From: Gracilaria domingensis
Lineage: Eukaryota > Rhodophyta > Florideophyceae > Gracilariales > Gracilariaceae
Length of the DNA: 64,000 nucleotides
NCBI GenBank assembly: GCA_022539475.1
Contig: VCMS01000241.1
Coordinates: forward strand, 62,001-126,000
Direction of reading: 5' to 3'
Position numbers and translations under genes: made by a program. The number at the start of each line of letters is the position of its first letter. Position 1 is the stretch's first letter. Positions 8,703 through 49,452 of this stretch are shown here, piece after piece. Below the pieces are notes generated by a model. It did not search any database and was not told the origin of the DNA. It worked only from the letters and a program-made list of their open reading frames with translations.

Positions 8703-8718
8703 CGTCTGTGTTCTGCAA
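8703..8718 (+). repeat. Terminal inverted repeat (3' end of copy 1)
   Basis: CGTCTGTGTTCTGCAA is identical to the reverse complement of 49437-49452. It defines the left boundary of copy 1. The flanking bases are AG at 8701-8702; the matching duplication cannot be seen because the other end is in the gap. Confidence 0.75.
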
Positions 8719-9244
8719 AGTGGAATATTGTCTGTTCGCTTTGGAAATTAAGCTAGTTTCTGGGCTATCTGGAGCGCGCGAGGGGGTGGCAGAGGCTGGC
8801 ACTCAAAAAATTAAGAAATTTTGGAATATTAAATTCCATCCCTTGCAGGTTAATGTTGGGGTCTCCTAGTTTTTGTAGAGGTTCTACTTCGCCACACCAC
8901 CCCATCCACTCTTTCCCGCGACCCTCTCCCAAATCTGCGCTTGTGCTAGTTTGCGTTTTCAATTTTCGTTGTGTTGGGATGCAAATCGCATCTCATCCCA
9001 GCTCAATGATCCCACCGTTCCTTCCCATCCAAATCGGCCTCATTTTTTACTCAATGTTTGCCAGTCACGCTTTCGGATCCTCCCTCCCCGTCTCCCCAAC
9101 AGTTATTTTGTAAAAGCACGGGTGGCAACGCTCCCCAACCCCGTACACCTCCGTCGCCCAAAAACGGCCTCCCATTCTTTCTCATCCTTCTCTCCTCCTG
9201 CAACCTCAGAATCCAGTCCATCATCTGCAGCGCCATGCCCTACT

Positions 9245-9740
9245 CTAAAATTCATTCAAAACTGGAGCCCCGATGGCCTCCTGCGGTACCTCTTCCATCA
9301 CCTTCCTCTTTTCCTTACGCGTCTTTTTCAGAAAACTCTTCTTGTCCTCGAACCTACCACCCTTTGTCTTCGGTGTCACAAATGACCGCTTCTGTGCCGC
9401 AACACTTCTCGCACGTCCCATCTCTGCCTCTCCTTCCATATCAAATTTCAACCTCCCCTCTTCCACCAACCCTTGCCTCCTGCCGAACTCTTCCGCCACC
9501 TTCTCCACCACGTCGATCAGGTTCTTAAGGACCGTATTCTCCTCGTGCAACTGTTCATGGTCGCTTCCCGCACAATATAATATGCAATACACATTACATT
9601 TCATCTCCATCCGTTTTACCGGCAAAGAACAGCGCAGGATCAATATCCCTTCAACAAAAAACTCACTACTAGCCCCATTCAGCAGCACGCCGCCCATTTC
9701 ACTCACACTCCCGACGATGCAATAGTATAATAACAAGCCC
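9245..9740 (-). pseudogene. Relic of the element's coiled-coil protein
   Basis: On the minus strand, VSEMGGVLLNGASSEFFVEG and then HEENTVLKNLIDVVEKVAEE, RRQGLVEEGR, KRSFVTPKTKGG and EVPQEAIGAPV align in order with the intact coiled-coil protein of copy 2 at 48085-49014 (there EMGGVVLSG, REENRVLNERLDVLEKEVKE, KGSPVTPKTKGG and EVPREGVGAPVV). The N-terminal part is missing and an unrelated or unaligned segment lies in the middle, so the gene is broken. Its place beside the 3' terminus is the same as in copy 2, which shows it belongs to the element and not to captured cargo. Confidence 0.7.
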
Positions 9741-10079
9741 GAACAGCCCTACACTTGCCTTTATTTTTGTTGCCAAAAAGAATCTCTCTGTATTTTTGCT
9801 TCAATCTCCAAATAGTCTTCAATCTTTAACTTGTCGGCAAACAACACAAAAGGTTTTGTAGCTCTGGAAAGGAAACACAGGATCCCAGAATTTCCACAGG
9901 ACTTCGAGCAAGAGAGACCGGTGCGAGCAACGACGCGGGTCGTGCGCTGTGACAGTAGTTTACTGATGCGGATAGATGTTCCACCAGTAGACGTTGGCAG
10001 TAGATAGAACGGTCAGCGACGCTAAGTAGTGCTGCAGCTCGGGAAAACGCTTCTAAAATAAACAAATATCGATGTCCAA

Positions 10080-10960
10080 GTGATGGCCTATATCGACAAG
10101 AAAAGATGCAACATCGACACGCTGTACAAATCCCTTAGCTGTATCGCTCTCGTACCTTCTATTATGACAACCTCTACCTTCGGTTTTACCTCTGTCTTTA
10201 CTCCATCACCATTTGTTCTCTTCTTTGCAAATATACGTTCTTCATCTACCACTTGCTTGTCGTATGACATCTGAACCGCCTTCGCAATGGCTTTATATGC
10301 GCCTTTCTGCCGCCCAATGGCGTAGGGAGCTTACCATTCCTAGCGTATTCGTTGCACGTATTTAAAACAGAGAGCACCCACCAAATCGATAAGGTCCATG
10401 CCATAAGCTGCAAGCAAAACCTTTTGAGCTATTCGACCTTCTGATCTTGTTTCATGCTTTCTCGTCACCTGAATTTGTCCCCTTTTTCTTATCGGAGTTC
10501 TTATCGGATGCTCTCCTGTACAATTCTCCATCTTTCACTAGTTAGTGCCCACTAATTATCTTTCTACAATATCATTAAATAGTTTTTTAACCACCTTGCC
10601 TTGACCTAGATTACTCTCTCATCGAACGATGAGAACACTTTAAAGCTGCCTTCAGTGATTCACAATTCTCTTTCAAGTTTTGCAAGACAGCTTTGTTTCT
10701 TCTCACTGGTCGTTGTTTCCGAGAGCGCCATGCAATAGTTGTTAATTGTTGTTATGACATATGCATCAGCTATAGGATCGTTAGAAACATGGTTGGCGAA
10801 TGTTGATTGCTGGTCAAGCGTGAAGGATGAGTGGTAACGGCGGAATGGGGAGGATTGTAAAGCAGAAATGTTTGGCTGTGCCCTAAAGCAGCTGTGAACT
10901 GTTTCAGGCGATTTATTATATATGTCTGTTCTACAGTTGAATGAAGACTTCAATCATTCG
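10080..10960 (-). pseudogene. Unrecognised cargo gene remnant
   Basis: The minus strand carries three protein-like segments in changing frames: 10953-10660 (STFANHVSNDPIADAYVITT, then KKQSCLAKLEREL), 10531-10340 (GRIAQKVLLAAYGMDLIDL) and 10270-10088 (EERIFAKKRTNGDGVKTEV). They could be exons or frameshifted pieces of one small basic protein. No family is recognised. Confidence 0.3.
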
Positions 10961-11799
10961 TGCCGTTATGAAAGGTTTATGATAGAGTTGGTTGTTGTGT
11001 TTTTAGAAGACGTATACACGCAGAGATTGGAATTCAATTGAGCAGGACGATGCAAGTAGCTGCAGATTGTTTTTGTTTTGTGTAGCAGAGACATGGTTTA
11101 CATGTGATGAATTGCGGGATATATGTAGTGCGACAGGGACGAGCTCCTGTGCGCTTGCTCTCGTGAAAAGCACGGCAAGCACAATAGCTCGGATGCTGTA
11201 TGGCAGTTAAAAGTGGAGTGTTATAGTTTTACTTCTGGCTTGAATTTTGAAATGAAACTCAACGACGCTTATAAGAGCGAAGATTTCGAGCACTGGAGTC
11301 TTTTTCAAAAGCACAGAGAAGAACTCGCAAGAGCGTAGAGTCACCACTGCGCACGACCAACGTTGGTGCTCTTCACTTGCCAAATGCGGGCAAGAGCGAA
11401 ATGTACGTGCACGCACCGACGCGCACCTGTACACATCTTGTACTGAAAAGGGGCCGAAAGAGAGGCAGCACAGCTACGCCACGTGCGCGCCACCCGCACA
11501 GCGCCGCTGTGCGCTCGAAAACAATCTATCAAACAGCGCCCATTCGCATCGGCGGTCTCGCTCGCCGCGCGCTCGCGAGCTGCTCATCGCTGCCAGCCGA
11601 ACGCCATGGGCGCCGCCTCCTCAATGCACGCCCCACGCCGCCGCGTAGGAGCCTAACATTTTGCAAGTGCAGAGAGTCACCGGCCTGTACCGCGCCGCGC
11701 TGCGCACGTCGCGCGACTGAACCATTGACTACTGCATGTGAGTCAAGGAGTGCGGGCAGATTCAGCAGCGCTTTCCAGCCAACGCTTGCGGAGAATGGT
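10961..11799. other. No supportable gene
   Basis: AT-richer sequence to about 11340, then more GC-rich. Open frames here are short or antisense to each other, and no repeat or RNA gene was recognised. Confidence 0.4.
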
Positions 11800-12036
11800 A
11801 TGGAGGAGCTTTTTAGTATGAGACATCCGGATCCTTACATTCCGATCTATAAGCCGGGCTCTTCTAGCTATCAACAAAATGTGCCGCCGCCTCCGGAGGT
11901 ATGTTTTGCCTTTTGACTGCGCGCCGCTGCCGTCCTCATTGCGTGCTGCTGCTAACTCGCTTGCGTTCGATTCTGTGTCACTGTTTTGTTAGCTTACCCA
12001 CAGTTCATGCCCCCACCGCATGAAGCAATTCAGTAG
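11800..12036 (+). CDS. Small two-exon gene for a 43-residue proline-rich peptide
   Basis: Exon 1 (11800-11898) encodes 33 residues beginning MEELFSMRHPDPYIPIYKPG and ending VPPPPE. It is followed by GTATGT, a CTAAC branch-point-like sequence near 11952, a pyrimidine/T-rich run and CCCACAG. Exon 2 (12004-12036) gives FMPPPHEAIQ and a stop. The proline pattern carries across the junction (PPPPE-FMPPPHE), which supports splicing. The intron is 105 bases, close to the 97-base intron at 62786. The frame is also open upstream of 11800, so the true start could be earlier. I do not recognise the product. It lies in the variable middle of copy 1. Confidence 0.4.
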
Positions 12037-12189
12037 TTCCGTACCAAAGATTCAACGGTAGATCAAGACCAAAGTGCTTCATCAACGTTTTTGTCATCTT
12101 GTACACATCATCTTTGACCACACCATCCCCCGCCGCTTCCCCTCTGCGAATCCCCGCGAAGCTCTTGAAAAAACAAAAACCACAATCAT

Positions 12190-13650
12190 TGGTGCTAGAT
12201 CTTCAACAGCTTATCCTTGCGCGCAGGAACAGCTCTCTTCCCATCCGTACTCCAATTCACCGTGAACACCTCATCACTATGTCCAGGCAGATCCATCTTC
12301 AATTTCTTCGTCCCCATATCCCAAACCTTGCAGGTACTATCCTTCGAACCACTCATCAACAACCGTCTATCCGCCGACCAAACCACTCCATTCACGGCCG
12401 CAACATGCCCGCGGAACGTGAAGCAAAAATTGCCAGTCTTGGCATTCCAAAGTCTCACACTCTTATCAAACTGGCCGACGCGATATAATGTCCATACGGA
12501 CTTAACGCCACGCAGTTGACCGGCTGCTGATGGCCGGTCATGTGCGAAATGGGCTGTATGCCCTCAGAGTAAAATCATCAGAACCACTTACCCTAAGTTC
12601 CTTCTTGCCCGTACTTTGCGTCTTCATCTTTTCAAAGCGCTCCAACGCTTCTTCTTGCGACAACTTGACCGGCGTGTATCCGTTCTGCTCGTCCAGAGAT
12701 GCAAACGCATCGCATATGAGCACGTAGTTGGTAGAAACCGTGATGGAATTCACCGAGTGAGCATGTGCATTTATAGTAGACACAGGATGGCCCGTATCAT
12801 ACCGGCCATCCTGTGTCTACTGATGATCAGCACTCCAGATCTTTATACTACGATCTTGAGAAGCAGAATAAATAGAACCGTCTCCACTCTACCCAGCAGT
12901 CGTGACGGCGGTATTATGTCCCGCGATCATCTTGACCGCGCTCATGCTAGCCGCGTTCCAAACTTCGACGTAGCATCTTTCGAAGCAGACACAACCAAAC
13001 AACATCGTTCATCCAAATGATACGGCTTCCAACACAAATCTGCCACCCATTTGCGATAGGAAGCCAAGCTCTTACCCGTTCCCTTCTCAACGTCCCAGAT
13101 CCACACCCGACCTTCCTTCGAAGCAGAAGCCCATCGACTCCCCTCTGGGGATAACCCCAACGCCAGCACCCAATCGCGATGATCGATAAAAGAAAGCTTC
13201 GGCAACTACGCCTTCGCACTTCACAATCTGACGCTAGTATCGCCAGACCCCGTCGCTATCAAACGACAATCCGGCGAGAAAACACGTCACCAAAACCGCC
13301 TCCTTGTGTCCCGGTAAGCTTGAGCTACACCTCAAAACAGACTACATGCGAAACAACAACAGCGGCACAAATTCCAGCTGCGCCACGCTCTCTCTCACAT
13401 GCGAAGCAGCCTTCAAAGTGGCTTCCAAGCTTCGGTCACTGGCTTGCGCGAAGATCGCAGAAAGAATTCATACGGCAACGGCGTGTCATTGTTCAGAAGG
13501 TGGTTGAGGAATCCCGCGAGCTGCTTGGGCGCGGAACCAGGTCTTACGTCAAAGACAGCGCGTAGGGGGTCGACCTCTTGCGGGAAAAGCTGCACGAGTG
13601 GGCTTGAATGCGCGCGCGGCGCGTCGTCGGCGCCATCCGACTGCACCGCG
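12190..13650 (-). pseudogene. Notchless homologue NLE1 (WD40 ribosome-assembly factor), full-length but frameshifted
   Basis: Minus-strand translations follow the order of NLE1. The NLE domain is at about 13650-13450 (PGSAPKQLAGFLNHLLNNDT, then PLPYEFF). WD repeats follow: FSPDCRLIATGSGDTS, DHRDWVLALGLSPEG, KEGRVWIWDVEKGTGK, KKELRVSGSDDFTLRAYSPF, then RLWNAKTGNFCFTFRGHVAA, SGSKDSTCKVWDMGTKKL and LPGHSDEVFTVNWSTDGK. The span of about 1.46 kb equals about 485 codons, the family's normal length, so the copy is full-length and intronless. The reading frame changes several times, and an 18-bp palindrome (12775-12821) interrupts one repeat. NLE1 acts with the Rea1/midasin ATPase in 60S maturation. 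It lies inside giant transposon copy 1 and looks like captured host cargo. Confidence 0.8.
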
Positions 13651-16600
13651 CGCCGCCCAACCCGGCGAAGAGGACGGCGCAGAAGCAGACGCAGTATGGA
13701 AGACTCAACGACGACGACGCCGTGCACATGGCAAGTGACGCGTGTATTCGAGCAGGCATTCACAGCCGTAGCGGCCCCAGCCTGTGGCTCACTTGCCGCG
13801 GAGGCGTCTCGCGACACCTCCTCCAGCCGACTATTGGTGATGATCGCAACTGCCCATTTACGTGCTGACCTTCGCAGTCCGCCATCATCTGCCGATGCCG
13901 CGCCGCTGTCACGCGACGCGTCGCACCCTCAAGGTGTGCGTGCGGCCGCTCGCAATGAAGGCGACGTACTTCCTCCCGCCGCTTCCGTCGCTTCGGACCG
14001 GGCGTTCTCACGCCACCATGCACGCTCTCCGTCGCATCGCGCTCATTCCCCCCAGCCCCGCACGCCGTGCCTGCCTGTAGAGCGCCGCGACCGCTCATGC
14101 TGCCGGCGCTCACCGACGCGTTGCGCGACGCGCAGCTCACGTTGGCGATTTTCGGCGCCGTCAGGCTGTCGCTGGGCGTCTGGCAACGGGTAACAGCGCC
14201 TGAGCTGGTTTCCTCGCGCACGACGAAGGAAGATTATCCACATCAGTTGTGGGCCAGATTTCCTTGCATTTTGACCACTGTATAGCGCGATCACCCACGC
14301 GCATCTGTGTGCTGCCTGCTTGCCGCTGCTGTTCTCTTCTGTGCTTGTAGTGTCTGGCTTGTCGTCGCACGAGCGACAGCACTACGACCGGTTGCCGTGA
14401 GCCTGTTGCGCATGTGCGATCGATTCGTCGCGCACGGCCTATGCTCTCCTCAGACAGAGCCTCGAATCGTGATCCAGCGTGATTCGCAGGCGACACAACA
14501 AGGCTACGTCCTTCTTGGAGGCGCCCCGAGCCAGCCTGGCGTCGGCGTCGGCCCCCATCGGCGCCGTTGTGAACGGCAGCGCATTAAGTTCGTTTCTCGC
14601 CTTGTTTAGCGGGCTAGCAATGCCCGACAGCTGCACCAAGCAGGTGTTGATCGCCACGCCGCGAACGCGCCAGCGGCGACGGCGTGAGCGGCATGGTCTG
14701 CAAAGGCAAGCTGTCCGTGGTGAGAAACACGCTGCGCAGCAGCAGCGGCTTGTCCGACGCGTCCGATGAAGACGCGCTGCATGGCGGCGACGAAGATGGC
14801 GACAGCGAGCGGCTGGACGGCGTGCGCACGGGCGACACGGAGTACGGCGAGTCAAGCTGTGCGCGCGAGCGCGCTCGAGCTTGCGCGGGAGGGCGAGACG
14901 GTGAGTGCGAGGCGCTTGCAGAGAAGGAGGAGGAGAAGGAGATTGAAAGAATGATGACGGGCGAGGAAGAGAAGCTGAGGGAGGGAGAGGAGGGCGCGTT
15001 TATTGACGGCGACGGGGGCACGCAGTGCATGTTGCGGAGGATGTGGCCCGCGACGCAAGGCGAAACAGCGGCACGCGCGGGCAGCGTTGGCGCGTTAGCA
15101 TGGAGCGCCAAGTGGGCGGGTGCGTGTGGGGGCTGGAGGGGCGGCGTCGGAAAGCTGCGGACAGGCGAGAGTGGCGGCGCGCTACGCAGCGCAAGCTCAA
15201 CAAGTTAGTGCGCAGCATTTCAGTGGGAGAAATTCCACTTGCTTTCAGTCGCGCCTTGCTGCCCTCATTGGTATACAAAGGTATTGCACCAGTACCAACC
15301 AACTGTGTACAAAAACGCGTGTGCGGCTATTTACATCATGTCTACAGACGTTGCTCTCCCTTAAACAGTTTGTATTGTTGCTGTGTTATTCACAGACACT
15401 ACGTTAGCGTTTGACTGCCCCCGCGCGCGGCCATGTACATGCTTTCAGATACATTATGCACGAGCGAGGTTCTTGTAGCGGCGCAGCTGCCACTGACGTA
15501 CAATGTTCCACCCAGCCCCCATGTTGTACTCCTCCCCCGCGCCAAACTCACTCCCCGCCTCAGTCTTCATCTCCACTTGTTCCTTCAGGTGCACCACTCG
15601 CTCGCCTTTCATTTGCTCCTGCCGCACGTCTCCAGCGTCATTCTCATCGCTGCTATCAGCACCCTCAGTCTAGTACGCAGAGCACGCGATTGTTTAAGCC
15701 TGCAGCGGCGGCCCTGGAGACGAAAATTGTGATGGCGACGGACTTCACATTGAACAGCGAGAGAGCGGCTGCAGGTTCCTGACACATGTAATCAAAGCGC
15801 AACAAGAGGGTATTTCTGAGGGTGGTGCCCTGCGTGCCGCCCATCGCGCCAAGCGCCCAAGATGCAACATCCACAGTCCGGTTGCAACACGTCAGCAACT
15901 GTGGAGAGCAGCGGTGTTCGCGACAGATTCAGCGGCGGCCGGCGCGACAGACGCATCAGTTGCTTGCGATATAGCTCCGTGCCGTCTGACATGACGGCGC
16001 GACATACGCGCAATAGTTTGGACGCGGGCATCACCGCGGGGACCATAGCGAGTGCAGCGGCGGAGGCGAGATCGGGAACTGAGACCATGAAGACGGCAGC
16101 AGCTGGTTCGATGTGGCACAGCGGCGTCATAGCAGGCGGCACGCAGCCCGCCGGCCGTGGTCTTGGCAAGATTAGTCACCAGCACACCGCCTCTGTCGTC
16201 GCGTTGACACACCGCGCGCGGCCATGAGTGCGCGTGGTTCGAATGGCCGGCGAACAGCGCGACAGCGATGATGTCTGCCCCGGCGCGCGCGCCCAGCCGC
16301 GTCGCGTGGCTCTTTGTGTCTGGTGGTCTTGAGCTCGCGAGCGGCGCGCGGTGCGCGACAAGCCAGTAGTGCGCAAGTTGGCCGCGCTGCGGCGCCGAGA
16401 AAAGGAGGGGTGGCAGCCCTCGAAATCCACAAAGCCGCGGATTGCACTTCTAGCACAAGCCTGGATCTTACGGTGTCGATGCGCTGATCCATGCAGCCCG
16501 GCGACGGTAGCAGAGCCGAGAGATGGCAGAGAGGCTCGTCATGCAGCGCAGCGGCGAGAAAGAGCGCGGTGACGAAGGCGGCTGGCTACGGCGGTCAAGG

Positions 16601-16950
16601 AGGGACGATAAAGGCGAAGAATATGCCGACAGTGGCGGTGAAACCATGATCATATGCAAATCGCACGGGTACGGCGGCGGTATGAGCGCAATCGTAAGCG
16701 AAGCATGCAGCGACGGCGGCCGTGGTGTATACGACTAAGAGCAGAGAACACGGCAATGGCGGCGGAGGTGGATCCACCAAGGTGCGGTAGCTGCGGCAGC
16801 GTGATCAAGATGCGGTACCTACGGCGGCGCGATCAAAGTGCGGTAGCTACGGCAGCGCTATTGGGGAGCGGTAGCAAAACTAAACTCATAAAGAACGCCG
16901 CAGAGACCAGCATCGCGAGAGGAGAGCGACGCGAGTTCTACGGCGCAACG
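13651..16950. other. GC-rich block with decayed minus-strand reading frames
   Basis: Composition jumps to strongly GC-rich. Several minus-strand segments look coding. One at 15111-14440 is serine/proline-rich (SPSRPPAQARARS, then SSDASDKPLLLRSVFLTTDS) and continues after a frame change as NTCLVQLSGIASPLNKARNE. Another at 16170-15690 includes AAAVFMVSVPDLASAAALAM, GTELYRKQLMRLSRRPPLN and, in another frame, NRTVDVASWALGAMGGTQGT. None matches a family I know. They could be one or two degraded cargo genes. Long open frames on the opposite strand are expected from GC content alone and are not annotated. Confidence 0.3.
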
Positions 16951-17084
16951 ACGCACCGCCTGCAGGAATGGCGCCGCGCGCTCCATGGGCGGCGCGGAGG
17001 TTTGCTGGCGATGGGTTGTTGCAGGCGGGTGTCATCAGATATGTCGTAATGTCATTCTGTCGTATTGGCAGCGCGCGAGATCAA

Positions 17085-17515
17085 GTTGTGTTAGGGTCGC
17101 TACCCTAACACAACTCGACCGCCCTGCCCGCGGGCACGTTACGTTTTGGCTGGATATGCGTGCGGTGTGTGTTTTGGGAGGTCTGTGGACGCTACCAGAA
17201 TGAGGCGAAAACGAGCCCGCGGGCGGGGGGGGTCGGTCGTGTTAGGGTAGGTACCCTAACACGACCGGACCCCCCCGCCCGCGGGCATGAAATCGCACAT
17301 TTTTGAAAAAATCGGCCAAAACGTGCCCGCGGGCGGGGGGTCCGTTCGTGTTAGGGTAGCTACCCTAACACGAACGGACCCCCCCGCCCGCGGGCATAAA
17401 AAAGCACATTTTTTAAAAAACCGGCCAAAACGTGCCCGCGGACGGGGGGGTGCGGTTGTGTTAGGGTAGCCACCCTAACACAACCGATCCCCCCCACGCC
17501 GGCGGGCACGTTCTG
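17085..17515. repeat. Palindrome array 1: four units centred on head-to-head TTAGGG
   Basis: Four inverted repeats with centres near 17100, 17247, 17357 and 17467. Each has a core close to GTGTTAGGGTAGCTACCC continuing to AACAC, extended on both sides by complementary C/G-rich arms that include GCCCGCGGGC, so one unit folds into a hairpin with arms of about 30 bases. Units are spaced by about 110 bases and separated by A/T-rich linkers containing TTTGAAAAAA-like text. The array is bounded by inverted copies of a TTTTGGGAGGTC-containing flank (17175 and 17545). The same array occurs in copy 2 at 43440-44228. Confidence 0.9.
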
Positions 17516-17639
17516 GTCACATTTTCGCACCATGCCGAGACCTCCCAAAACCCCTTCCTCAACACTTTTTGCACTCATTACCATGCACCCGCCCGCGAAC
17601 ACGTTGGCACCGCTGTCTACGTAGATTGGCGGGATGGCA

Positions 17640-20870: not shown

Positions 20871-20879
20871 GCTGAGAAC

Positions 20880-25458: not shown

Positions 25459-25508
25459 GTTATAACTGTGTTAAGGTCGACCACAATTCTAACAGTAACT
25501 CAGTTAAC

Positions 25509-31077: not shown

Positions 31078-31097
31078 CCCCCCCTGTGTCACTGACT

Positions 31098-37102: not shown

Positions 37103-37157
37103 AGAGTGCTCGTCACTTTCAGTTCCAGAGCACTCGTCAAACCTCACATCTCGTGAC

Positions 37158-37534: not shown

Positions 37535-38626
37535 TCAGCGACAAGCGGTTGATCCGAGCAATCGGGGACGTTAGTCTGGCGGCTTCAACCAAAGCGGACG
37601 TGCTGTCTAGCGGGATCCCACCCGTCCTTCGGGGCGGATAATGGTGTCGTTCGGAAGACCTGGTAGTACCGCGAGTGCTGAAGTGGACGGGGTGCCGTGA
37701 CGCACTGTTGGACTTGGGTGGCTCACCTTTGTTGTTGTTGACCTGACTTTGTGTCGGGTTCTTGATCTGTGGTGAAGGCAAACCGAAACGAGCTTTTGAT
37801 CTGTGCAACCTCGGTTGAGCGGGGAGGCGACGTACCGAAGGCTGACCTTTTCAGGATCAGGCCGCCTGTCGGCATTATTGTCTGCTCGTTAGTAGCGTAC
37901 CTTGGTTTGTCATAGTAGCTGCAGTTTCGAGGTCGCGCAAGTTCTTGCAAGAGGCCAGATTGGGTTAAGTGGTGAAGACATATCTTTGGTCATTAACCAT
38001 CCTTTGGACGCCTCGTAGAGAGCAACGCGCCTTCTCCTGGAACGCAGGAAGAGGTAGACTGCAGAAGTCGTTTCCTACCCGGAGGGTCTCCGGGGGTCAG
38101 TGGTCCGATCCCCTAGGATACTGGGAATTTAGTTCCTGCCAGTGGTCCCGACTATTGAAGTTTTTGTTGTTGTTGTTGTTGTTGTTTGCCGTTGTTGTTG
38201 TTTGCAGTTGTTGTTGTTTGCTGCTGTTGTTTGCTGCTGTTGTTTACTGCTGTTGTTTGCTGTCGTTGTTTACTTTCGTTGTTTGCGGTTGCTGTCTACT
38301 TGCCGGCGCCGTATTTGATTTGCTCCGCTGTTTCCTTCTGACAACATGGATTCGTTTAGTGGGCTCAAGATCGAGAAGTTGGGTGAGGATAACTTCCACA
38401 CATGGAAGCAAAAGATTCAGTACGTACTTGCACTGAAAGACCTCAAGAACCATCTCACCACTTCTGCATCCACCGATGAAGAGGAACTGGCGAAATGGCA
38501 AATCCGAGACGAAAGGGCTAGAGCGATCATTGGACTCACGCTTGCCGACGAGCACTTGGATCACATTCGTGACATTGACACTGCTGCTGACGCATGGAAG
38601 GCCATCTGCAATGTGTTCCAACGCAA
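37535..38626 (+). mobile_element. Copia A-family fragment: leader and start of gag, split by giant transposon copy 2
   Basis: This is a plus-strand copy of the copia A leader (compare 35850 downward) followed by the gag start at 38346. It is cut at 38626 by giant transposon copy 2. The gag sequence resumes for about 25 bases at 49453 and then becomes unrecognisable. The fragment is broken. It supplies the empty-site sequence that fixes the borders of the giant transposon. Confidence 0.8.
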
Positions 38627-38642
38627 CGTCTGTCTCTTGCAG
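38627..38642 (+). repeat. Terminal inverted repeat, 5' end of copy 2
   Basis: CGTCTGTCTCTTGCAG. It matches the inverted 3' end except at three positions and begins directly after the copia gag text ending ACGCAA. Confidence 0.8.
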
Positions 38643-40447: not shown

Positions 40448-43400
40448 ATGGTCTACTACTGTACACATAAGAAGCGTGGGTGCCCCTTCGTTACTCGCCG
40501 AGGAGTCTTATCTCTTCAACAGCATGTCAACCATTGCCCGTTTCGTCTGAAAGCAGCGCTGGAAGACGACAATAGGCGGCCCATTCGGAGAAGCAAGCGT
40601 CTCAAGCTTTCCGCGCCCGCGCCCGCATCTTCCGAAACGGTCACTGCCCCTTGTCGCCTTCCCGAGCCTCCGGTGTCCGAGGACATCGTCGACCCCACTC
40701 CGTGCGCCCCTCCTATTCCGGACACTTCGCATTGTGTTTCTCCTTCCCCGGGTCCCGCGTCATTAGAGCGAGAACACGGAAGCAGTTCCCGCCCAGTGCC
40801 TTCTGAGGAGGCCCTTGGTGATTTGCATATGGATTATCTCACGGTTTGTCTGGCTTCAGTAGCTTCCAACCTTGGTCATCGTGAGGCGGACGAGCTAATT
40901 GGGTTACTTCGGGACCCGCGATTCTCGCAAAAGCGATTCAACGAGACCATAACAAGTTCCAAGCGCTGTACAGAACTGAAGAACGCCATTTTCGAACGAT
41001 ACGCCTCAAAGGACGGTTTCAATCGAAGAATTGTCTCGCCAGAAGGATGTAAGTTCAGCGCCACCCTCTACACGAGAGACCCCGTTCAGACACTTGTGAA
41101 ACAGCTCCAGTTGGCTAACAACGAAAACACATTCTTCCACCTTATACCTCAGACCCACTCCACGAAAATATCTCACCCCATGTCCGGCTCTCTCGCAAGA
41201 GACGCCACCTCAAAACTTAAGGAAATGGTCATGGGCTCTTTGGATAGTAGAATAGTGTGGTACTCCCAAGAAATAAGTTACAGTGAATCTTTCGTAGGTC
41301 TTCTGCAGGTATACACCGATAAGTCTTCAACAACTCTAAAGCAAACATCGGTTACCGCCTATCCTCTTTACCTCATATTTCTCAACTTCTCCGACGAGCT
41401 TCGCCGTAAGTGTATCCGTGATGACCTCACAGTAGTGGCATACTTTCCGACCACACTGATCGAGGTTTCCGCATCTGAAGCAGACGCAATGCCATTCGTT
41501 TCTAGCAAGTCTCTACGCGAGTCCAGGATGCAAATCCTTCAAGAATCTCTTCGTCAAGTCCTGGAGCCCATTCTAAATCTCACGCAGAAAGGTTTTCAGT
41601 TCATCGGCGAAGACAAACTAAGTCGAGTGTGCCATCCTCTGCTTGCATGTTATTGTGCGGATATTCCTGAGGCTAAGGACATTCTGTCCATTCTTCATCG
41701 GACCAAAACAGAAAGCCCGTGTCATAGATGCAAAGCCCCTCGCTCATCTTTATGCAGTCCTATTCCCACCTCATTCAACGGACGTTCTCAAAAGCACACG
41801 AAAAGCATCCGAAAGACATACACAGCTATCTTGCAACATGCACAAAAAGACGAGGCGGAAAGACGTCCACGTCGTGCGAGGGAGAGGAGATCTCAAGCGG
41901 ATACTCTGATGCGTTCAAATTCCATATCTCTCATTCCTTCGTTCCTCGAAACTTCCGTAAGCCTTTGAATGCTCCCGGGATTGTCTCCATACAGTCTGTT
42001 CTCATTCGAACCATTACAAAACTTGCATCTCGGCATCTCAAAGTTGATAAAAACGGCCACAATCGAGAGACTGCAGTCAGACACCCTGTGCACCACAATA
42101 GGAACATCTGCATCGCGTTCATTTCGAACGATACGCACCCAACTCCTCAACCATGCAAACGCAATTCTAGCTGCCATAGAACGCGATTCTCCTGCCAAAG
42201 GTTTACATATCGATTTCTCCACGCAGGAGAAAGGCAAATCTTTGAATGGTATCTTCACGAAAGACGGTCTCCGTGGAATGCTGGAGGCCAAAAACTACAA
42301 AGCACTTGACATGGTCTTTCCCTTCATAGGAGCATTCTTCGACATATGCTGTGGAGAACAGGACGTTGCCCCAATCACAACCGTTTTCTCTCAGTACTCG
42401 GACTTGCTTTCGACCTTATTCAGATATAATCGTGACCCGTATTGGACTGAAAGCTCTCTCCTGTGTCTTAGTTCGGAGATTGAAGCCTTCAAGCGTTCCG
42501 CAACAAAGACTCTGGCGGATTTTCATCCCTCCAGACTGGGAACTCTGAAGTTTCATCTTCTCGATCATCTCGTGGACGATATTCGCCGTCTGGGAAGTAT
42601 CAAGTACTACGACGCAGGCATATACGAACATGCACACCTGCTATTTAAGAGACACTACAAAAAGACGTCCAGAAGAACAGCAACGGCTGTGGAGGAGACT
42701 ATTCGCTCCATTGAGCACGGACATGTTAGAAAGCAATGGAATGGCAATACTCCTTACCAGCGTAATCCAGGTTTACCAGGAACTTCCACACAGCTTCCTC
42801 GGTTTGCAATGAGAGGGCGTTCTTTCACTTTACGAGCTCTTCAACATCGTGTTTCAAGTATGTCCAGTTCAAAAACATGGACTGCTGTTAGAGAGATGTT
42901 CTCAAGTACGGACACAAGGTCGATTCTTGATCAGATTGGTGAACAGGCCCTTCCTCCTTTCCTCAGTCTCGTGAAAGAAACACTGGATGAGCACTCTATT
43001 ACATACTTCCCAGAAAAGACAAGGATAACTCTGGTGAATTCGGCCCTCGTGAAAGGCGGTTTCGTTCCGACTCTTGAACACTTCGATTCGTCTTCTAAGG
43101 CACTTAAGCTGGGACGACCCAAATACCCCATCATTCAACGTGTCTTCGCTTCTCCAGCATTTGGTCCCAGTAGAATGCGAAAGTTTTCCACTGTATTGGT
43201 AAGCGGAGAAGATTCAGAGACTTGGGTTGCCCAGGTAGTCGCTCTGATGTCGGCCACGTCGCGATTCGGAGCTATTGCAAAGGTCGCGTACTGTGCTAAA
43301 AGTCGCGGATCAAGTGGGTGTGAAGCGCTAGTTTTCTCTAGTTTGATATGTGTGCACGGCGTGTGCAGCGAAATCACTGCCAGAAGAGCCGGGAGGAGTG

Positions 43401-43474
43401 CTTTCGAAGGTCTCCGGAGGGTGCCAAAATGTGGCCAGAACGTGCCCGCGGGCGGAGGGGGTCGGTCGTGTTAG
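40448..43474 (+). pseudogene. Plavaka/CACTA-like DDE transposase with N-terminal zinc finger, one in-frame TGA
   Basis: The first ATG of the frame (40448) gives MVYYCTHKKRGCPFVTRRGV followed by QQHVNHCPF, a C2H2/C2HC-type finger. The middle has FVGLLQVYTDKSSTTLKQTS with VTAYPLYLIFLNFSDELRR, resembling the Plavaka/CACTA core (VYSDxTxLTNF...WPVYLFFGN). It is followed by HPLLACYCADIPEAKDILS with a C-x2-C pair (PCHRCKAP), and later FEPLQNLHLGISKLIK, like the (D/P)LHxLxLGxxK motif of Tnp2-type proteins. A single TGA at 41966-41968 divides two halves (534 and 501 codons as open frames) that are in the same frame. Copy 1 aligns across the site. The C-terminus reads into the palindrome array. The superfamily assignment is from motif memory and needs a profile search. 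The TGA makes full-length product unlikely unless read through. Confidence 0.7.
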
Positions 43475-44228
43475 GGTAGCTACCCTACCACGACCGGACC
43501 CCCCCGCCCGCGGGCACGTTTTGGGCGATGTTTTGAAAAATGTGCGATATTATGCCCGCGGGCGGAGGGGGGTCGGTCGTGTTAGGGTAGCTAACCTAAC
43601 ACGACCGAACCCCCCCGCCCGCGTGCACGTTTTGGACGATTTTTTGAAAAATGTGCGATTTTTTGCCCGCGGGCGGGGGGGTCAGTCGTGTTAGGGTAGC
43701 TGCCCTAACAGGACCGGACCCCCCCGCCCGCGAGCACGTTTTGAATGATTTTTTGAAAAATGTGCGATTTTATGCCCGCGGGCAGGGGGGGTCGGTCGTG
43801 TTAGGGTAGCTACCCTAACACGACCGGACCCCCCGGCCTACTGGCACGTTTTGGACGATTTTTTGAAAAATGTGCGATTTTATGCCCGCGGGCGCGGGGG
43901 GTCGGTCGTGTTAGGGTAGCTACCCTAACACGACCGGATCCCCCCGCCCGCGGGCACGTTTTGGACGATTTTTTGAAAAATGTGCGATTTTATGCCCGCG
44001 GGCACGTTTTGGACGATTTTTTGAAAAATGTGCGATTTTATGCCCGCGGGCGCGGGGGGTCGGTCGTGTTAGGGTAGCTACCCTAACACGACCGGACCCC
44101 CCCGCCCGCGGGCACGTTTTGGACGATTTTTTGAAAAATGTGCGATTATATGCCCGCGGGCGGGGGGGTCCGGTCGTGTTAGGGTAGCTACCCTAACACG
44201 ACCGACCCCTCCCCGCTCGCGGGCACGT
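43440..44228. repeat. Palindrome array 2: seven units centred on head-to-head TTAGGG
   Basis: Seven palindromes, centres near 43476, 43588, 43698, 43808, 43918, 44073 and 44184, most spaced about 110 bases. The core is TTAGGGTAGCTACCCTAA, flanked by CGACCG/CGGTCG, runs of C or G and GCCCGCGGGC. Linkers are TTTTGGACGATTTTTTGAAA-like and nearly identical between units; one linker is duplicated without a palindrome (about 43985-44045). Compensatory differences keep some arms paired. The array is bounded by inverted copies of a flank of about 80 bases containing AGCGAAATCACTGC (43370 and, inverted, 44275). Despite TTAGGG, it is internal to a transposon and not a telomere. Confidence 0.92.
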
Positions 44229-44652
44229 TTTGGCCACATTTCGGCGCCTTCCCGGGACCTCCCAAAACACGCCGCCCCGCAGTGATTTCGCTACACCCGG
44301 CCGCCGGTACGTTGGCGCCGCTGTCCACGTGTATTCGCGGGAGTAGGCTGTACATGGAAGTAAATGAGTGTTCTCTTGACTACTATGCAAAGCATTTGAA
44401 GAGCATGATTAGAGAGCCCGACCATTGCTCGCGTGAGTCATCATTGCGCGAACTCCACGACTCTAAAGCGTACAATCAGTGTGCGAGCGGCCACGGACAG
44501 GACACGGACGAGACTGGCAGTGCGCTGGGAGGAGCTGCCGAAAGCGGGGGTGCCCAGCGTAAATCGCCATTTAAAAGGCTCGCATCCGTTCTTGTATCGT
44601 CCAGAGCGAACGTATTGTTGATATACACCTTTCACTGCAATAGCTGTTCAAC

Positions 44653-45771
44653 ATGAAGCCAACTCGTGTTCGAAAGCGTACGCAAAGCGTGACTCCTCGC
44701 ACTCGGCGGAGCACTCGATTATTGCAAGGTGGAATGCGGGTTTCTCTGCAGATGGATATTGAGAATGAAGGAAAGGTGATAGTGGGGTAAGCGTTTTTGC
44801 ATGGAATTGGAAGTGTTCTACGCCGCGAGTTGCTCGGGAAGCAATTGGACCCAGGTCTTGTGATGGTTCATAATATTCTCATCAGTCGAAGCGGTCAGAC
44901 GTTCTACCCTTACCGGGCGGAGGGCCTGGATCTTCCACAATATATCCAGGATCTCCGGACGGCCGCTCCTTGGGATGGGAAAATGATGGAACCGGTGGCA
45001 GCCAGCATTCCGGCGTCGAAGCGAGGAACGGTGAGCGCTATGAGTGAGGTGATGACGCCGACAAGCCGCACGGAGCCAATTCGAAGTTCATCAACACCGA
45101 GAGGTAGCGCATCAGTAGCACCTCCACGGGCAGGTCCGTCGTCTGTTACGAAGCAGTCTATGAAGACGAGAGCATCCCCAGCTACGAAGCGGACAGGTCA
45201 AACAAAGTCTACCTCCGTTACGAAGCCCCTTGCGTCGAAAAGGGCTTCTCCTGCGATGAATCAAACCGTCGACACAAGGGGATCTTCTGCGTCAAAACAG
45301 ACGGTTCAGCAGGGGACGGCTGTGCAAGAGGAGGAAGATGAGATCATAAAAGGTCCTCTTCCAGACGCGGATGCGCAATCCGCACAAGGAGCTGGTCCAT
45401 CTGTACCCCAAACTGCACCAGAAACTGCGGAGCAGCAGGACGATGACGTTGTGCTTCTGTCCGCAAGAATGGCACGTTCAAGTGTTTCTGGCGAGCGGTC
45501 TGGAACACAAGGGACACCTACTCGGAGCAAGACGTACAGACGAATTCGTCAGAAGGTACCAAAGGTGAACCTCAATTCCAATTTCGTGTACAACAAACTG
45601 TGGCAGTGGAGAGAAGAAGTGGATTCTGCTATTGGAGACCTGTTGCAGAAGATGGATGCGTTTGTTATCTATCCCGGCGATAAAAGTTGCGAAATTGTGG
45701 ATAACTTCCGGTTTTCACTTCGACAGTCCATTGTACGTGAAGTTAGGGAACAGGTCATTTCGATAAAGTAA
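44653..45771 (+). CDS. Unknown basic nuclear-type protein gene, with an in-frame TAA early on
   Basis: A frame starting ATG at 44653 encodes KPTRVRKRTQSVTPRTRRST, then MDIENEGKVIVG, and meets TAA at 44788-44790. The same frame continues at once with FLHGIGSVLRRELLGKQLDP and runs to 45771. The central 150 residues are Ser/Thr/Lys/Pro-rich and include repeated SxxTKxxxxxRASP text, typical of a disordered linker; the C-terminus looks folded (NKLWQWREEVDSAIGDLLQK). The TAA follows GGG and overlaps GTAAGC, a possible 5' splice site, so an intron is an alternative, but I see no good acceptor. The domain layout (basic tail, disordered middle, helical end) resembles chromatin proteins. The family is not recognised. 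Confidence 0.45.
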
Positions 45772-45830
45772 CTTTTATGTTTAACTATCTCTAAAAGGTT
45801 TACAACACCGAAAAGTCATGTTTTCTAACC

Positions 45831-46733
45831 TCAAAGCTGGGGGAATGGGGAGGGGGATAACTTTTCCTTAACAACGTTGACGTAGTTTGTATGAAAAGGA
45901 GCGGGGTCACCGCCTACAATGTTTCTTTCTTGGCGAGAAAAGTCGTAGAAGTACGCGTTCCTAAACTGAAAGTCGGAGAAAGAAGTAGGGAAGCCAACGA
46001 GAGTTTGCCCATATGCAAGAAGTCGCCCAACGGTCTCTTCCAGGTTGAAAGTAGTACCTGTCTTAAGCGAAACTATCTTCAACAGCTCTTTCATTATTGT
46101 GAGCACAACCGTACTGCACTCCGTAGCGACTACGTCCATAGGAATGAAACCTCTTGAGGCCCCGACGATGTTCAACGCTGATAGCCACACGAGCTTCTCA
46201 TAATAGCTTACGAGAAATGTGTCTTCGTCGACAACCCCGCAAGTGAGACCCATAGACCTAAACCTGTCTGCAACGTTGGAGGCCCACTTTCCTGTTACGA
46301 CAGTGAGACCATCCGGACTTTGAGGAGTGACACCATCCTGCGGAGCTGCGTTTCTTGAGGGGACACCAACGTATAAGACAACTTTTGAACATTTGTCCAC
46401 ACCGAGCTTCGAAACCAATGGTATGATGTCTCCATTCTGGAAGAAAACGATATTCTCTCTCAGCGAATAAGGGCAAGCCTGAATTACGGTCTCCAGGGTG
46501 TTCGTTCTTCCACAAACTAGTATCTGTACATCAGAAAGATGAGAGGTAGCAGCCATGCTGTAGAATTCGTGTGCGGAAATGACCATATCTTCTTCGTTCG
46601 CCAGCATGGTACCTATACGCCCCCTTCCAACAATAACGGCCCGAGTCCTTCGGGCGGGAGATGAGGCCTGAGGGACGTCAGAGTATCTGGGACTCGGAGG
46701 CGGAGTCGGAGGCATGTCGGACTGGGAGTTCAT
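45831..46733 (-). CDS. Ketopantoate-reductase-like NAD(P)-binding protein, intact
   Basis: A 300-residue frame on the minus strand. The ATG giving MNSQSDMPPTPPPSPRYSDV is preferred to one 67 codons upstream, because the upstream part is Ser/Tyr-rich and untranslated-looking. After a proline-rich leader, RAVIVGRGRIGTML is a Rossmann-type GxGxxG turn. Then come LVCGRTNTLETVIQ, RENIVFFQNGDI, TVVTGKWASNVADRF, YYEKLVWLSALNIVGASRG and FQFRNAYFYDFS, the order and text of the plant/algal plastid ApbA/PanE-like family. The exact substrate of that subfamily is not established to my knowledge. It is one of the few undamaged genes here and lies inside giant transposon copy 2, convergent with the unknown gene at 44653-45771. 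It is probably captured cargo; a resident gene engulfed by a composite insertion is less likely, because the copia empty site excludes it. Confidence 0.75.
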   Translation of the reverse strand: MNSQSDMPPTPPPSPRYSDVPQASSPARRTRAVIVGRGRIGTMLANEEDMVISAHEFYSMAATSHLSDVQILVCGRTNTLETVIQACPYSLRENIVFFQNGDIIPLVSKLGVDKCSKVVLYVGVPSRNAAPQDGVTPQSPDGLTVVTGKWASNVADRFRSMGLTCGVVDEDTFLVSYYEKLVWLSALNIVGASRGFIPMDVVATECSTVVLTIMKELLKIVSLKTGTTFNLEETVGRLLAYGQTLVGFPTSFSDFQFRNAYFYDFSRQERNIVGGDPAPFHTNYVNVVKEKLSPSPFPQL

Positions 46734-47130
46734 TGCAAGTGTTCGAATGTTTTTGTGTGACGATAGAAATGGAAGATGGGGCGGAGAACTGCTGGGGTAA
46801 AGAGTGATACTTAAGTACAAACGGTTGGGAAGCGCAGAACGGGAACATGGTTCACTTTGTGAAAGTGAGCGAAATGTATGATATGTGATTGTACTGAATG
46901 AATGATAGGGCTTGTATGAGACGACAAGCCACAAAGTGTGATGATGTTTTATGAAAGGTAGGTGGAAGAGTAGAAAGTGTGCAATGAATGAAACTGATTT
47001 CGAACCTGAGTTGTAAAGTAGTTGTAAAGTACGAGTTACGGGGAGCTTGAATACAGGATGAAAGGAGCCATTTTGGCTTCATAAATGACGTGAACGGGTT
47101 CTATAGCTTCACTTGGATTGCCATAATTAA

Positions 47131-47451
47131 AAGGATGGAGTTGGATTGCGCCCGAATACGTCTATAAAGGTCGTAGAAGCACTTATGAACGAAGGAGTTG
47201 TAGACATGTTATTGTTGATGACGGTGGAGCCAGGGTTTGGAGGACAGGCGTTTATGGAGGGTGTTCTTGACAAGGTGCGACATGCAAGGGAGTTGTACCC
47301 AAGAATAGGGATACAGGTGGATGGAGGTATTGGACTGAGTACTGTGAAAGGAGTAGTGAAGGCCGGTGCAAACATTTCAGTTGCAGGATCTGCCATCTTT
47401 GGCTCGAGTAACCCAGCTCATGTCATAGCTGGTTTTCGAAAGGTTGGTTAG
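47131..47451 (+). pseudogene. C-terminal fragment of ribulose-phosphate 3-epimerase
   Basis: About 106 codons from 47131 begin KDGVGLRPNTSIKVVEALM and contain VDMLLLMTVEPGFGGQAFME, PRIGIQVDGGIGLSTVKGVV and GANISVAGSAIFGSSNPAHV. These match the second half of the RPE TIM barrel, including the VEPGFGGQ signature and the catalytic Asp of VDGG. RPE interconverts ribulose-5-P and xylulose-5-P in the Calvin and pentose phosphate pathways. The N-terminal half (about 110 residues with the metal-binding His and Asp) is absent. The first codons follow AATTAAAAG, which could be a splice acceptor, so this may be a captured last exon. No upstream partner exon is visible. It is part of the variable cargo of copy 2. 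Confidence 0.85.
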
Positions 47452-47520
47452 AGATAGTAGCATAAATTTATTGTTTATTACATTGTTACCTTTACGTGTT
47501 ATCACGACTATATTCTCCGT

Positions 47521-47596
47521 GTCCATTGGAGATGTATTTCTCTTGTATCACAACCGGGAAAGGATGTGAGAGAACATAAATATATCCCCAGTGGAC
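47521..47596 (+). ncRNA. Pre-miRNA-like hairpin 1
   Basis: Arms 47521-47555 and 47562-47596 pair over 35 positions with 29 base pairs (including G-U), no bulges and a 6-base loop. It is the first of three similar tandem hairpins. Transcription is not shown. Confidence 0.45.
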
Positions 47597-47649
47597 GCTG
47601 AGAGGGAGGATGAACTACTCTACGTGCTACCATTGTTACCCATCCGGTG

Positions 47650-47723
47650 TCGAGTGGTGACATATTCTTTTTTTGTCACAACCCACAAAGGATGTGACGG
47701 AAGAAGAACATGCCCCCAGTCGA
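47650..47723 (+). ncRNA. Pre-miRNA-like hairpin 2
   Basis: Arms of 34 positions around the loop near 47684-47688 form about 29 pairs with single mismatches only. The sequence differs from hairpin 1 but the fold is the same, including the terminal CAACC/GGATG inner stem. Confidence 0.45.
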
Positions 47724-47768
47724 GACAGAGGGTGAGCAACTCTAAGTACAATCACTAGTCCCTAGCTT

Positions 47769-47851
47769 GCCTCCACTGGCAATATCTTCCTGTTTTGCTA
47801 TAACCATCGAGTGAGGTTATGGTGGAAGAGAAAAATATCGCCGGTCGAGGC
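47769..47851 (+). ncRNA. Pre-miRNA-like hairpin 3
   Basis: Arms of 37 positions form about 32 pairs around a 9-base loop (47806-47814). Relative to hairpin 1, the inner stem shows paired changes (C-G to T-A at the fifth pair, T-A to C-G at the eighth), evidence that pairing is maintained. Confidence 0.45.
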
Positions 47852-48084
47852 GAGGTGGGTGGGGACTATGTGAAGAGAGGACAGAGAGATGGCGCTTAAA
47901 TATTGGAAGGTGCGGAGGTGTACAGTAGATGTTTTGGCGGGAAATGGGATGAGCGAAACAGGGACAATCATGGTGCTGGATATAGCCCGTGTGGTTGGAC
48001 AGTGGGGGTGGACAGCACAGTTTAGCTCGATTGCACTGTATCGCAGCGGAAACTTCGATCCAACTACTACTTCTTTTTCTGAAG

Positions 48085-49014
48085 ATGTCGAACGGATACG
48101 TGAAGGATGAGGAGCTGTTGGCGCTGTTGGAGAGGGAGGAGGTACCGCAGACGCCGTCACCAAAGCGGGAAGAGGACGTGATTACGGCGGCTGGTCGGAT
48201 GTCGCAGAAGAAGGAAGTGGCCGATGAAGGAAAGAAGTGTGAGGCGAGGAGAGGGGATGGTGATGAGGTGGAGAAGGGGGTAGAATTGGAGGTGGAGGGG
48301 GTCGCAATGGAGAGAAGGGGTGCGGTGCATCTGAGTCAGTTAGAGGTTGGAGACCAGATAGAGAGTGGGGGCGGAGAGGGTGACAGGGAGATGCCGTTTG
48401 TGGGGGAGATGAAGGCGAGGGTGGGGATGTTGGGGTTGGTGATGAAGGAGCAACTGGAAGATGGAATTGTGGAGATTGTATCGGAAATGGGCGGTGTGGT
48501 GCTGAGTGGGGGTGGTAGTGGTGTTTCGGTTGAGGCGATTTCGAGCCTGCGGAATTCGTTGTCGGTATTGGGAGTGGAGATGAGAAATCATGTGTATGGG
48601 ATAGTGGAGTGTGCGGGAAGGGAGGTTGGAGAGTTGCGGGAGGAGAATAGGGTTCTGAACGAGAGGTTGGACGTGCTGGAGAAGGAGGTGAAGGAGCTGT
48701 GCAAGAGGCAAAGATTGGTGGAAGAGGAGACGGTGAAAGGAGGTGTGGAGGGAAAGACGGAGAAGGGAAGTGTGGGAAGGGTGGCGGTGCAGAAGGGGTC
48801 TCCTGTGACACCGAAGACAAAGGGTGGTGGGGTTGGGGATGGGAAGAGCCGTCTGAAGAAGAGGCGTAAGGAGATGAAGAAGGTGGAGGAGGAGGTGCCG
48901 CGGGAGGGAGTGGGAGCTCCGGTGGTGACTGGGTTTAGGAGTGCGGCGGAGGTAGCGCGGACTGCGAAGGGGATTCTGAGGGGACAGGAGGAGAGAAGGA
49001 TGGGAGGGATTTGA
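48085..49014 (+). CDS. Coiled-coil protein encoded near the 3' end of the giant transposon
   Basis: 309 residues from ATG 48085 (MSNGYVKDEELLALLEREEV). The N-terminal 60 residues are acidic with TPSPKREED. The middle contains MKARVGMLGLVMKEQ and a heptad-rich segment (REENRVLNERLDVLEKEVKE, about residues 190-215) expected to form a coiled coil. The C-terminus is basic (SRLKKRRKEMKK) and ends with a helix (RSAAEVARTAKGILRGQEER). A decayed homologue sits at the equivalent place in copy 1 (9245-9740), so this is a constant element gene. By analogy with the second protein of En/Spm-type elements it could bind DNA or assist transposition; that is inference. Codon use is strongly G-rich. No known family. 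Confidence 0.7.
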   Translation: MSNGYVKDEELLALLEREEVPQTPSPKREEDVITAAGRMSQKKEVADEGKKCEARRGDGDEVEKGVELEVEGVAMERRGAVHLSQLEVGDQIESGGGEGDREMPFVGEMKARVGMLGLVMKEQLEDGIVEIVSEMGGVVLSGGGSGVSVEAISSLRNSLSVLGVEMRNHVYGIVECAGREVGELREENRVLNERLDVLEKEVKELCKRQRLVEEETVKGGVEGKTEKGSVGRVAVQKGSPVTPKTKGGGVGDGKSRLKKRRKEMKKVEEEVPREGVGAPVVTGFRSAAEVARTAKGILRGQEERRMGGI

Positions 49015-49436
49015 AGCCGTTTTGGGGCGAGGCGGGTATACGAGAAGGGGGAGAGTTGGGCACCTGACTTCTACAAAATGAACGCGTGATGGGCGAGAAA
49101 TGGGTAAATAGCGGGGGTGGTGTGGACTGGGAAGAAGTGATGGGATGATTGAGGTGGGATGAGTTGCGATTGGCATTGCAACATGGGAGAAAATGGCAAC
49201 GCAAACTAGCACGAGTGCAGTTTTGAGAGAGGGTCGCGGAAAAGAGTGAATGGGGTGGTGCGGCGAAGTAGAACCTCTACAAAAACTAGGGGACCCAAGA
49301 ACTAAACTGCGCGAGATGGAATTTAATATTCCAAAATTTCTTGATTTTTTGAGTGCCAGCCTCTGCTACCCCCTCGCGCGCCCCAAATAGACCCAAAACT
49401 AGCTTAGTTTCCAAAGCGAACAGACTATATTCCACT
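49015..49436 (+). other. 3' subterminal region of copy 2
   Basis: Non-coding. It matches 8719-9245 (inverted) at roughly three quarters of positions or better, including GTAGAACCTCTACAAAAACT and GGAATATTAAATTCC-like text (inverted here, about 49318-49333), itself a small palindrome. This is the shared right end of the family. Confidence 0.7.
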
Positions 49437-49452
49437 TTGCAGAACACAGACG
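49437..49452 (-). repeat. Terminal inverted repeat, 3' end of copy 2
   Basis: The reverse complement reads CGTCTGTGTTCTGCAA, identical to the copy 1 terminus at 8703. Copia gag text AAGACTCTTCTGAACCG resumes immediately after it. Confidence 0.82.

Follow-up and report, generated by a model that had tools for sequence, protein, structure and literature searches.

Two inverted copies of one element

The window analysed here is a 64,000-nucleotide stretch (positions 62001-126000 of contig C241) of the 77.9-Mb assembly of the red alga Gracilaria domingensis. It holds two inverted copies of a large DNA transposon with terminal inverted repeats (TIRs), a Plavaka (CACTA-like) transposase and a variable middle. 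We read the copies as members of a high-copy family that very probably collects host chromosomal DNA. Their parts are listed below by window position, strand and description (ORF, open reading frame).

Copy 1
8703-9027, + strand: left terminus, CGTCTGTGTTCTGCAAAG..., whose first ~137-327 bp are common to all classes read
9245-9748, - strand: ORF, decayed counterpart of the coiled-coil-type gene of copy 2 (72.8% to that gene over frame positions 400-921)
10710-14366: captured segment 1, matching C91:169713-173415 at 87-89% identity, with NLE1 in the - direction at ~12195-13900
14365-15674: captured segment 2, with a stand-alone match at C133:131515-132863 (88%; match coordinates only)
15744-16953: captured segment 3, with a stand-alone match at C305:40738-41943 (91%; match coordinates only)
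17077-17512: TTAGGG-centred palindrome array of 4 units
18658-20915, - strand: decayed Plavaka transposase region, 6 stop positions relative to an open reference frame
20916-22995, + strand: right arm, with the terminus inside the run of Ns at 22996-23799

Copy 2
38625-38626, partner at 49453-49454: target-site duplication AA
38627-40170, - strand: right arm, with the right terminus CGTCTGTCTCTTGCAGAT at 38627
40448-43474, + strand: Plavaka transposase with an N-terminal Cys/His motif, in open frames of 547 and 501 aa; PF18759
43430-44240: TTAGGG-centred palindrome array of 7 units
44791-45771, + strand: basic-protein gene, whose C-terminus is the tail of the HAD-like protein in C9:35606 (tails compared by eye)
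45831-46733, - strand: cargo gene from a family of plant 'nuclear' or hypothetical proteins (homologue search)
47131-47451, + strand: RPE gene fragment, C-terminal part in a 106-aa frame (PF00834, 2.8e-25)
47986-49014, + strand: putative coiled-coil-type gene with an open frame of 342 aa (309 aa from MSNGYV) and no Pfam family
49128-49452, - strand: left terminus

The inverted arrangement, which an earlier note on this DNA had proposed, is borne out by arms at 8703-9027/49128-49452 and 19630-21048/40173-41595 and by the palindrome region (17208-17494/43567-44219). With both strands read, the two copies show one order. The left terminus is followed by the coiled-coil-type gene and the variable middle, then by the TTAGGG-centred array; beyond it come the Plavaka transposase, encoded on the opposite strand, and the right arm with its terminus. 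Copy 2 is complete (38627-49452) and flanked by AA on each side. Copy 1 has its left end at 8703, and an 804-bp run of Ns (22996-23799) obscures its right end; the proposal that both copies share the same termini thus held for the left ends, the right end of copy 1 being hidden in the assembly gap. Copy 2 was inserted in a copia element, and its joined flanks align across the junction with a copia copy of the window that is intact, on one side over ~20 bp only. A copia-type retroelement with a single 1385-aa open frame lies at 31098-35255 (- strand), and the copia copy that received copy 2 is related to it.

Left of the array, copies 1 and 2 have no sequence match beyond the first ~1 kb (left end and coiled-coil-type gene), in agreement with the claim that their middles differ. 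The coiled-coil-type gene, which had been put forward as a constant part, is common to copies 1 and 2 and present in their respective classes, B and A, but is missing from a third class, named here after its ECM29 cargo, which shares only ~310 bp of the left end.

A high-copy family with common ends

The termini have the form CGTCTGT..ACAGACG. At up to 2 mismatches, the left terminus gave 601 matches genome-wide compared with 12 for the reversed pattern, and the right terminus gave 573 compared with 2. We paired ends among the matches listed (100 per terminus, all with zero mismatches), 191 of which lie on contigs C1-C60. On these contigs, 46 of the 90 neighbouring end pairs within 30 kb were correctly facing left and right ends, 6.4-24.3 kb apart, and 45 of the 46 paired elements were longer than 9 kb. 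The notion that other copies would be short and always free of cargo therefore did not hold, the 6.4-kb element deriving by deletion from a cargo-bearing type. In the short element C6:443019, the first 137 bp are joined to a point inside segment 3 of copy 1 (~window 16709) and the sequence is 94.7% identical onward, which marks it as a product of deletion rather than an ancestor free of cargo.

A 2-bp duplication was present at 11 of 14 pairs (13 genomic pairs and copy 2 of the window), compared with 19 of 182 non-partner combinations; a 3-bp match was seen at 0 of 14. All 30 left ends read shared at least 135 bp from the first base: 24 were of the copy 2 class (one over 754 bp only), two of the ECM29 class and two copy-1-like, with C6:443019 and C9:35606 distinct from the rest. 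In all 30 right ends read, the match to copy 2 started at the first base and extended for 294 bp or more. Outer flanks matched other element copies in 6 of 60 cases (66-97% over 239-1500 bp), so close or nested insertions exist. Many copies with common ends and differing middles, the pattern to be expected from the earlier note, were thus found. Several ends lie within ~10 kb of contig starts; an association with telomeres was considered and dropped, as contig C16 starts inside an element, and we read these positions as assembly breaks.

Transposase and palindrome array

The proposed Plavaka/CACTA-like transposase was confirmed by a PF18759 (Plavaka) match at window 40325-41968 (1.7e-20; 74 bits, the cut-off being 26.3). 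The translated frames show a CxxC feature, CHRC after the Asp of ADIPEA, together with HLLDH before YEHAH (catalytic residues judged by eye). A protein search with the transposase returned a single match. The genome-wide Plavaka search yielded 672 candidates, with an 1100-aa open frame in 21 of the best 123 scored; one 1100-aa transposase frame sits within a 22.8-kb element, C23:11734-34552. Transposase sequence was found in all six elements read. Set against class A copies, the transposase region is interrupted by 5-8 stop positions per comparison in copy 1, in the short element on C6 and in the C5 element of the ECM29 class, which suggests that these copies probably move in trans and that their classes, taken singly, may be non-autonomous. 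An apparent second Plavaka lineage, with frames of up to 1110 aa that match profile positions ~105-317 only, occurs at C22:687175, C12:68428 and other places.

The TTAGGG-centred array is real: at up to 3 mismatches, the window has 11 palindrome centres, against a mean of 0.1 in 20 base shuffles. Most units are ~110 bp apart. In the six elements read, an array of 3-7 units is followed by the transposase region, and the variable cargo is located between the left end and the array.

A multi-gene host segment in the ECM29 class

Two host donor loci were located, C113 (sequence read) and C91 (match coordinates only). At C113, an ECM29 frame of 1884 aa, uninterrupted by stops (Pfam, 2.4e-47 and 8e-37), is followed by a legume-like lectin gene on the opposite strand and then by a cyclophilin gene. 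The cargo of the C5 element is colinear with C113:43255-50289 (~7 kb), with ~1 kb missing and the cyclophilin gene cut. Its match to C113 ends at element position 8020; from 8024, which is ~105 bp short of the first palindrome centre, the element resembles copy 1. No element terminus (at up to 3 mismatches) was found in the 10.8 kb around the C113 genes. The ECM29 piece is present at 97-100% identity in C5:482900 and 39 other places (best 40 of 103 candidates); on C1-C60, three of three lie inside a left end, at 3.25-3.26 kb. The cargo of this class is a genomic, multi-gene piece of the host, cut off inside genes and carried in dozens of elements.

A graded series of segments in the NLE1 class

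Segment 1 of copy 1 (3.7 kb) carries NLE1, and the best-scoring and longest NLE-domain frame (507 aa) lies at its donor locus on C91. C6:245497 has a second NLE-domain frame (419 aa), which probably belongs to a different gene of the NLE-domain family. In copy 1 itself the NLE1 assignment stood in part: the WD40 matches were recovered (12195-12563), and the NLE match (13413-13928; 8.6e-5, 23.3 bits) falls just below the cut-off of 23.4. One place among the best 40 of 55 NLE1 candidates is the host gene. On C1-C60, four of four NLE1 cargo matches lie inside a left end, at 0.9-3.9 kb, and NLE1, ECM29 and HAD matches together do so in 13 of 13 cases over the same range. As all three cargoes are also multicopy (40 places scored each), the middles are not single-copy DNA flanking separate insertions, the possibility that the earlier note had set against its own proposal. 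A Pfam scan of five open frames in segments 2 and 3 found no family.

Window 13331-17060 was used as a query across the segments, and the best 40 of 226 candidates were scored. The whole query (segments 1, 2 and 3) was held by 20 of the 40 rows, two ended at query 2341-2344 (segments 1 and 2), and 15, plus C91, ended at 1035-1037 (segment 1). C133 matched only 1035-2344 (segment 2) and C305 only 2414-3623 (segment 3), so that the break points of the partial copies coincide with those of the stand-alone matches. Nested one-, two- and three-segment copies with common breaks point to an order of capture, the simplest reading being that segment 1 came first, that segment 2 was added on the array side and that segment 3, nearest the array, came last. 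Identity to copy 1 was 85-87% for segment 1 alone, 85-88% for segments 1 and 2, and 95-100% in 19 of the 20 copies with all three (86% in the other), values that agree loosely with this order.

Class A cargo and its longer forms

The same middle is found in copy 2, C8:197779 and C2:399366 (class A), and that of copy 2 recurs in other elements at about 95-99%. Its gene at 45831-46733 had been called ketopantoate-reductase-like; it matched 0 Pfam families, and its relatives are mostly land-plant 'nuclear' or hypothetical proteins (31-41% identity), one of them labelled ketopantoate reductase in its source, so this name was not upheld. Its protein product and FGB62_89g16 of G. domingensis are 97% identical across 73% of the query. 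Compared with solved structures, this PanE-like gene gave no significant match (best E 0.5), and its ratio of nonsynonymous to synonymous substitution rates (dN/dS), 0.41-1.08 among four copies, is too weak a signal to indicate selection.

The RPE fragment was correctly recognized in the earlier note, and its 106-aa form recurs in many other places. There were 151 RPE matches among 444 candidates, and many copies have a full-length frame of ~259 aa and might still be expressed. On C1-C60, 28 of 35 RPE matches lie inside left ends, 2.05-2.31 kb in, several with the full-length frame.

Element C9:35606 (14 kb) holds extra HAD-like genes (PF08282, 4.7e-10 and 3.8e-4, the latter just under the cut-off). 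Because the basic protein of copy 2 ends with the tail of the HAD-like protein of C9:35606, we read it as a deletion fusion and the 10-kb class A as a deletion product of a longer (~14 kb) form. Elements of 22.6-22.8 kb at C23, C29 and C34 hold the HAD region at 97%. The best 40 of 645 HAD candidates were scored, and all six HAD matches on C1-C60 lie inside a left end, at 3.74-3.85 kb. Part of the C9:35606 cargo had looked ParB-like to us, but with no such Pfam domain and no homologue the label was not used.

Elsewhere in the window, a second long retroelement-like open frame (1652 aa) occupies 25428-30386 on the + strand, and a 987-bp inverted repeat (99% complementary, arms 3.6 kb apart) lies at 56093-57079/60690-61676.

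Weighing gene capture and its route

Common ends, multicopy middles that differ and identifiable donor loci support the proposal of a transposon that picks up and carries host genes. Several observations weigh against this account or parts of it. Three of the 14 pairs lack the duplication, including C9:35606, our reference for the longer class A. Seven of the 35 RPE matches on C1-C60 have no listed zero-mismatch left end nearby; three look like host genes and four are unexplained. Across all 151 RPE matches, C320:26901, C21:524044 and C17:505039-505686 are probable host RPE genes. In the ECM29 cargo, likeness to the host is 68-80% in the left part and mostly 88-98% in the right (a few windows at 62-80%), so a single capture is insufficient; two captures or gene conversion could account for the difference. 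Seven further ECM29_N loci lie outside the ECM29 class, and the three multicopy ECM29 N-terminal genes that were read (C105:152381-156172, C248:47601-51392 and C180:127420-131205) are mutually 97-99% identical, ~72% identical to the host gene and match the ECM29 class over 71 bp only. Two of the seven (C105 and C510) have a Plavaka match ~9-10 kb away.

In the NLE1 class, copy 1 is slightly more similar to C91 (87-89%) than to the copies with segment 1 only (81-84% in one search, for those with a row in it, and 85-87% in another). Moreover, in 17 of 42 rows the likeness to copy 1 is confined to ~window 10128-11545 (80-83%) and stops within segment 1, away from any segment border (best 40 of 96 candidates). 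These places, among them C22:258082, C6:10027 and C42:135559, are possibly another cargo class. Finally, that C133 and C305 are host donor loci rather than other elements is something we infer from their sequence matches.

Under the capture reading, elements with an intact ~1100-aa transposase, including one of 22.8 kb, would mobilize the classes in which it is broken. Complementary inner parts of two nearby copies would be lost, the hairpin-forming array being a preferred place of breakage, and the result would be one hybrid element retaining the host DNA between them, as in the published Pack-CACTA model (PMC13317346; here and below, sources cited by PMC number are represented by excerpts). 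New host DNA would enter repeatedly just left of the array, leaving older pieces toward the left end, and internal deletions would afterwards yield shorter derivatives. By analogy with that model, fusion of two neighbouring copies, with the array taking part, is the most likely route of capture; it would explain contiguous multi-gene cargo. Additions beside the hairpin array, together with one deletion ending near it, suggest that the array is a weak point. It is conceivable, though we think it rather unlikely, that the TTAGGG-centred array is a standing acceptor site beside which kilobase pieces of the host have been taken up repeatedly and in time order, in the manner of a cassette collector.

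The same cargo could instead have been copied in at the hairpin array, while a gap was repaired or replication restarted, by template switching to other chromosomes; we regard this as a credible alternative to element fusion, and the observations fit either route. It would suit the apparent repeated additions at one side of the array, the unmatched stretches between segments 2 and 3 (~70 bp) and between segment 3 and the array (~120 bp), and the undisturbed appearance of host locus C113; a contiguous segment of ~7 kb is, however, long for template switching.

It seems improbable that all classes descend, by loss only, from a single ancient giant element that had a large and fixed set of genes, and that the host took genes over from it. 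Internal deletions did occur in class A (10.3 kb from ~14 kb, with a fusion gene), RPE is widespread and often has a full-length open frame, and the rows ending inside segment 1 could be losses. Yet the ECM29 cargo holds neighbouring genes and intergenic DNA in C113 order with the end genes cut, segment 1 extends past NLE1 on both sides in C91 order, and each of the three segments of copy 1 has its match on a contig of its own, with sharp breaks in common. Least probable is a chance flanking of ordinary chromosomal genes by solo ends and element fragments, with no mobile cargo: although 44 of the 90 neighbouring end pairs were not facing (a count that includes neighbours from two different elements), it is contradicted by the copy number of the cargo, much of it at 95-100% identity, by its position inside left ends and by the 2-bp duplications at the flanks.

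Comparison with known elements

The fungal PlavakaA and PlavakaB families belong to the CACTA/EnSpm-like CMCT clade, have termini TGT..ACA or CATCA..TGATG and duplicate 2 bp (A) or 2-3 bp (B) of the target; some fungal families hold an extra captured gene, TET/JBP (PMC12730594). The Gracilaria family resembles Plavaka in its PF18759 transposase, the CxxC after the second presumed Asp and the 2-bp duplication. Its CGTCTGT..ACAGACG ends, unlike those of PlavakaA and PlavakaB, represent a separate, third terminal type, and it further differs from the fungal families, as excerpted, in its many different host segments, its palindrome array and its red algal host.

Enlarged EnSpm/CACTA families of 16-20 kb with 4-5 ORFs have been described in Chondrus crispus (Kojima et al. 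2013, cited in PMC6431247). Compared by description only, these too are giant CACTA-type elements with extra genes in a red alga, and they are possibly the closest relatives of the Gracilaria family. The excerpted description names no host donor loci, graded capture series or array, in contrast to what we see in Gracilaria.

Pack-CACTA and other Pack-TYPE elements are TIR elements that capture and spread pieces of host genes and are described as non-autonomous (PMC8903248, PMC13317346). The Gracilaria elements likewise hold captured host coding DNA between TIRs, but a transposase region is retained in those read, most are 10-24 kb in length, and one class contains a contiguous multi-gene segment. 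Pack-TYPE elements are set apart by having no functional transposase of their own, whereas in this family the region was present in every element read and the 1100-aa frame persists in the 21 places given above. Tgm-Express of soybean is also said to be a TIR element that captures host gene pieces. Starships of fungi are large cargo carriers with a DUF3435 tyrosine recombinase at one end and no TIR; the Gracilaria elements share the large cargo, and their CACTA-like Plavaka transposase and TIRs argue against membership.

Given the giant CACTA elements of Chondrus (PMC6431247) and the gene-capturing Pack-CACTAs of plants, the statement in the earlier note that no description of this combination was known was too strong. 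No description of the Gracilaria family itself appeared in the paper listings on Plavaka, CACTA capture, G. domingensis, Gracilaria, Chondrus and red-algal transposons and gene capture, a scope outside which the text of the Nakamura-Gouvea 2022 genome paper lies; on transposable elements of G. domingensis and on CACTA elements of Gracilaria, no paper was listed. Within that scope, what appears new is that third-type Plavaka ends occur together with a palindrome array, multi-gene cargo traced to its donor and a graded capture series.

How TIR transposons capture host genes is an open question, and the literature we met concerns gene pieces in plants. In this one genome there are element ends in the hundreds, elements whose sizes span 6-24 kb, donors that can be traced and classes that resemble stages of one capture series, so that the junctions of captures, their order and their age could be read in it directly. 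For this alga, it also means that transposon cargo inflates gene counts and apparent gene families (RPE, HAD genes and the pieces of ECM29 and NLE1).

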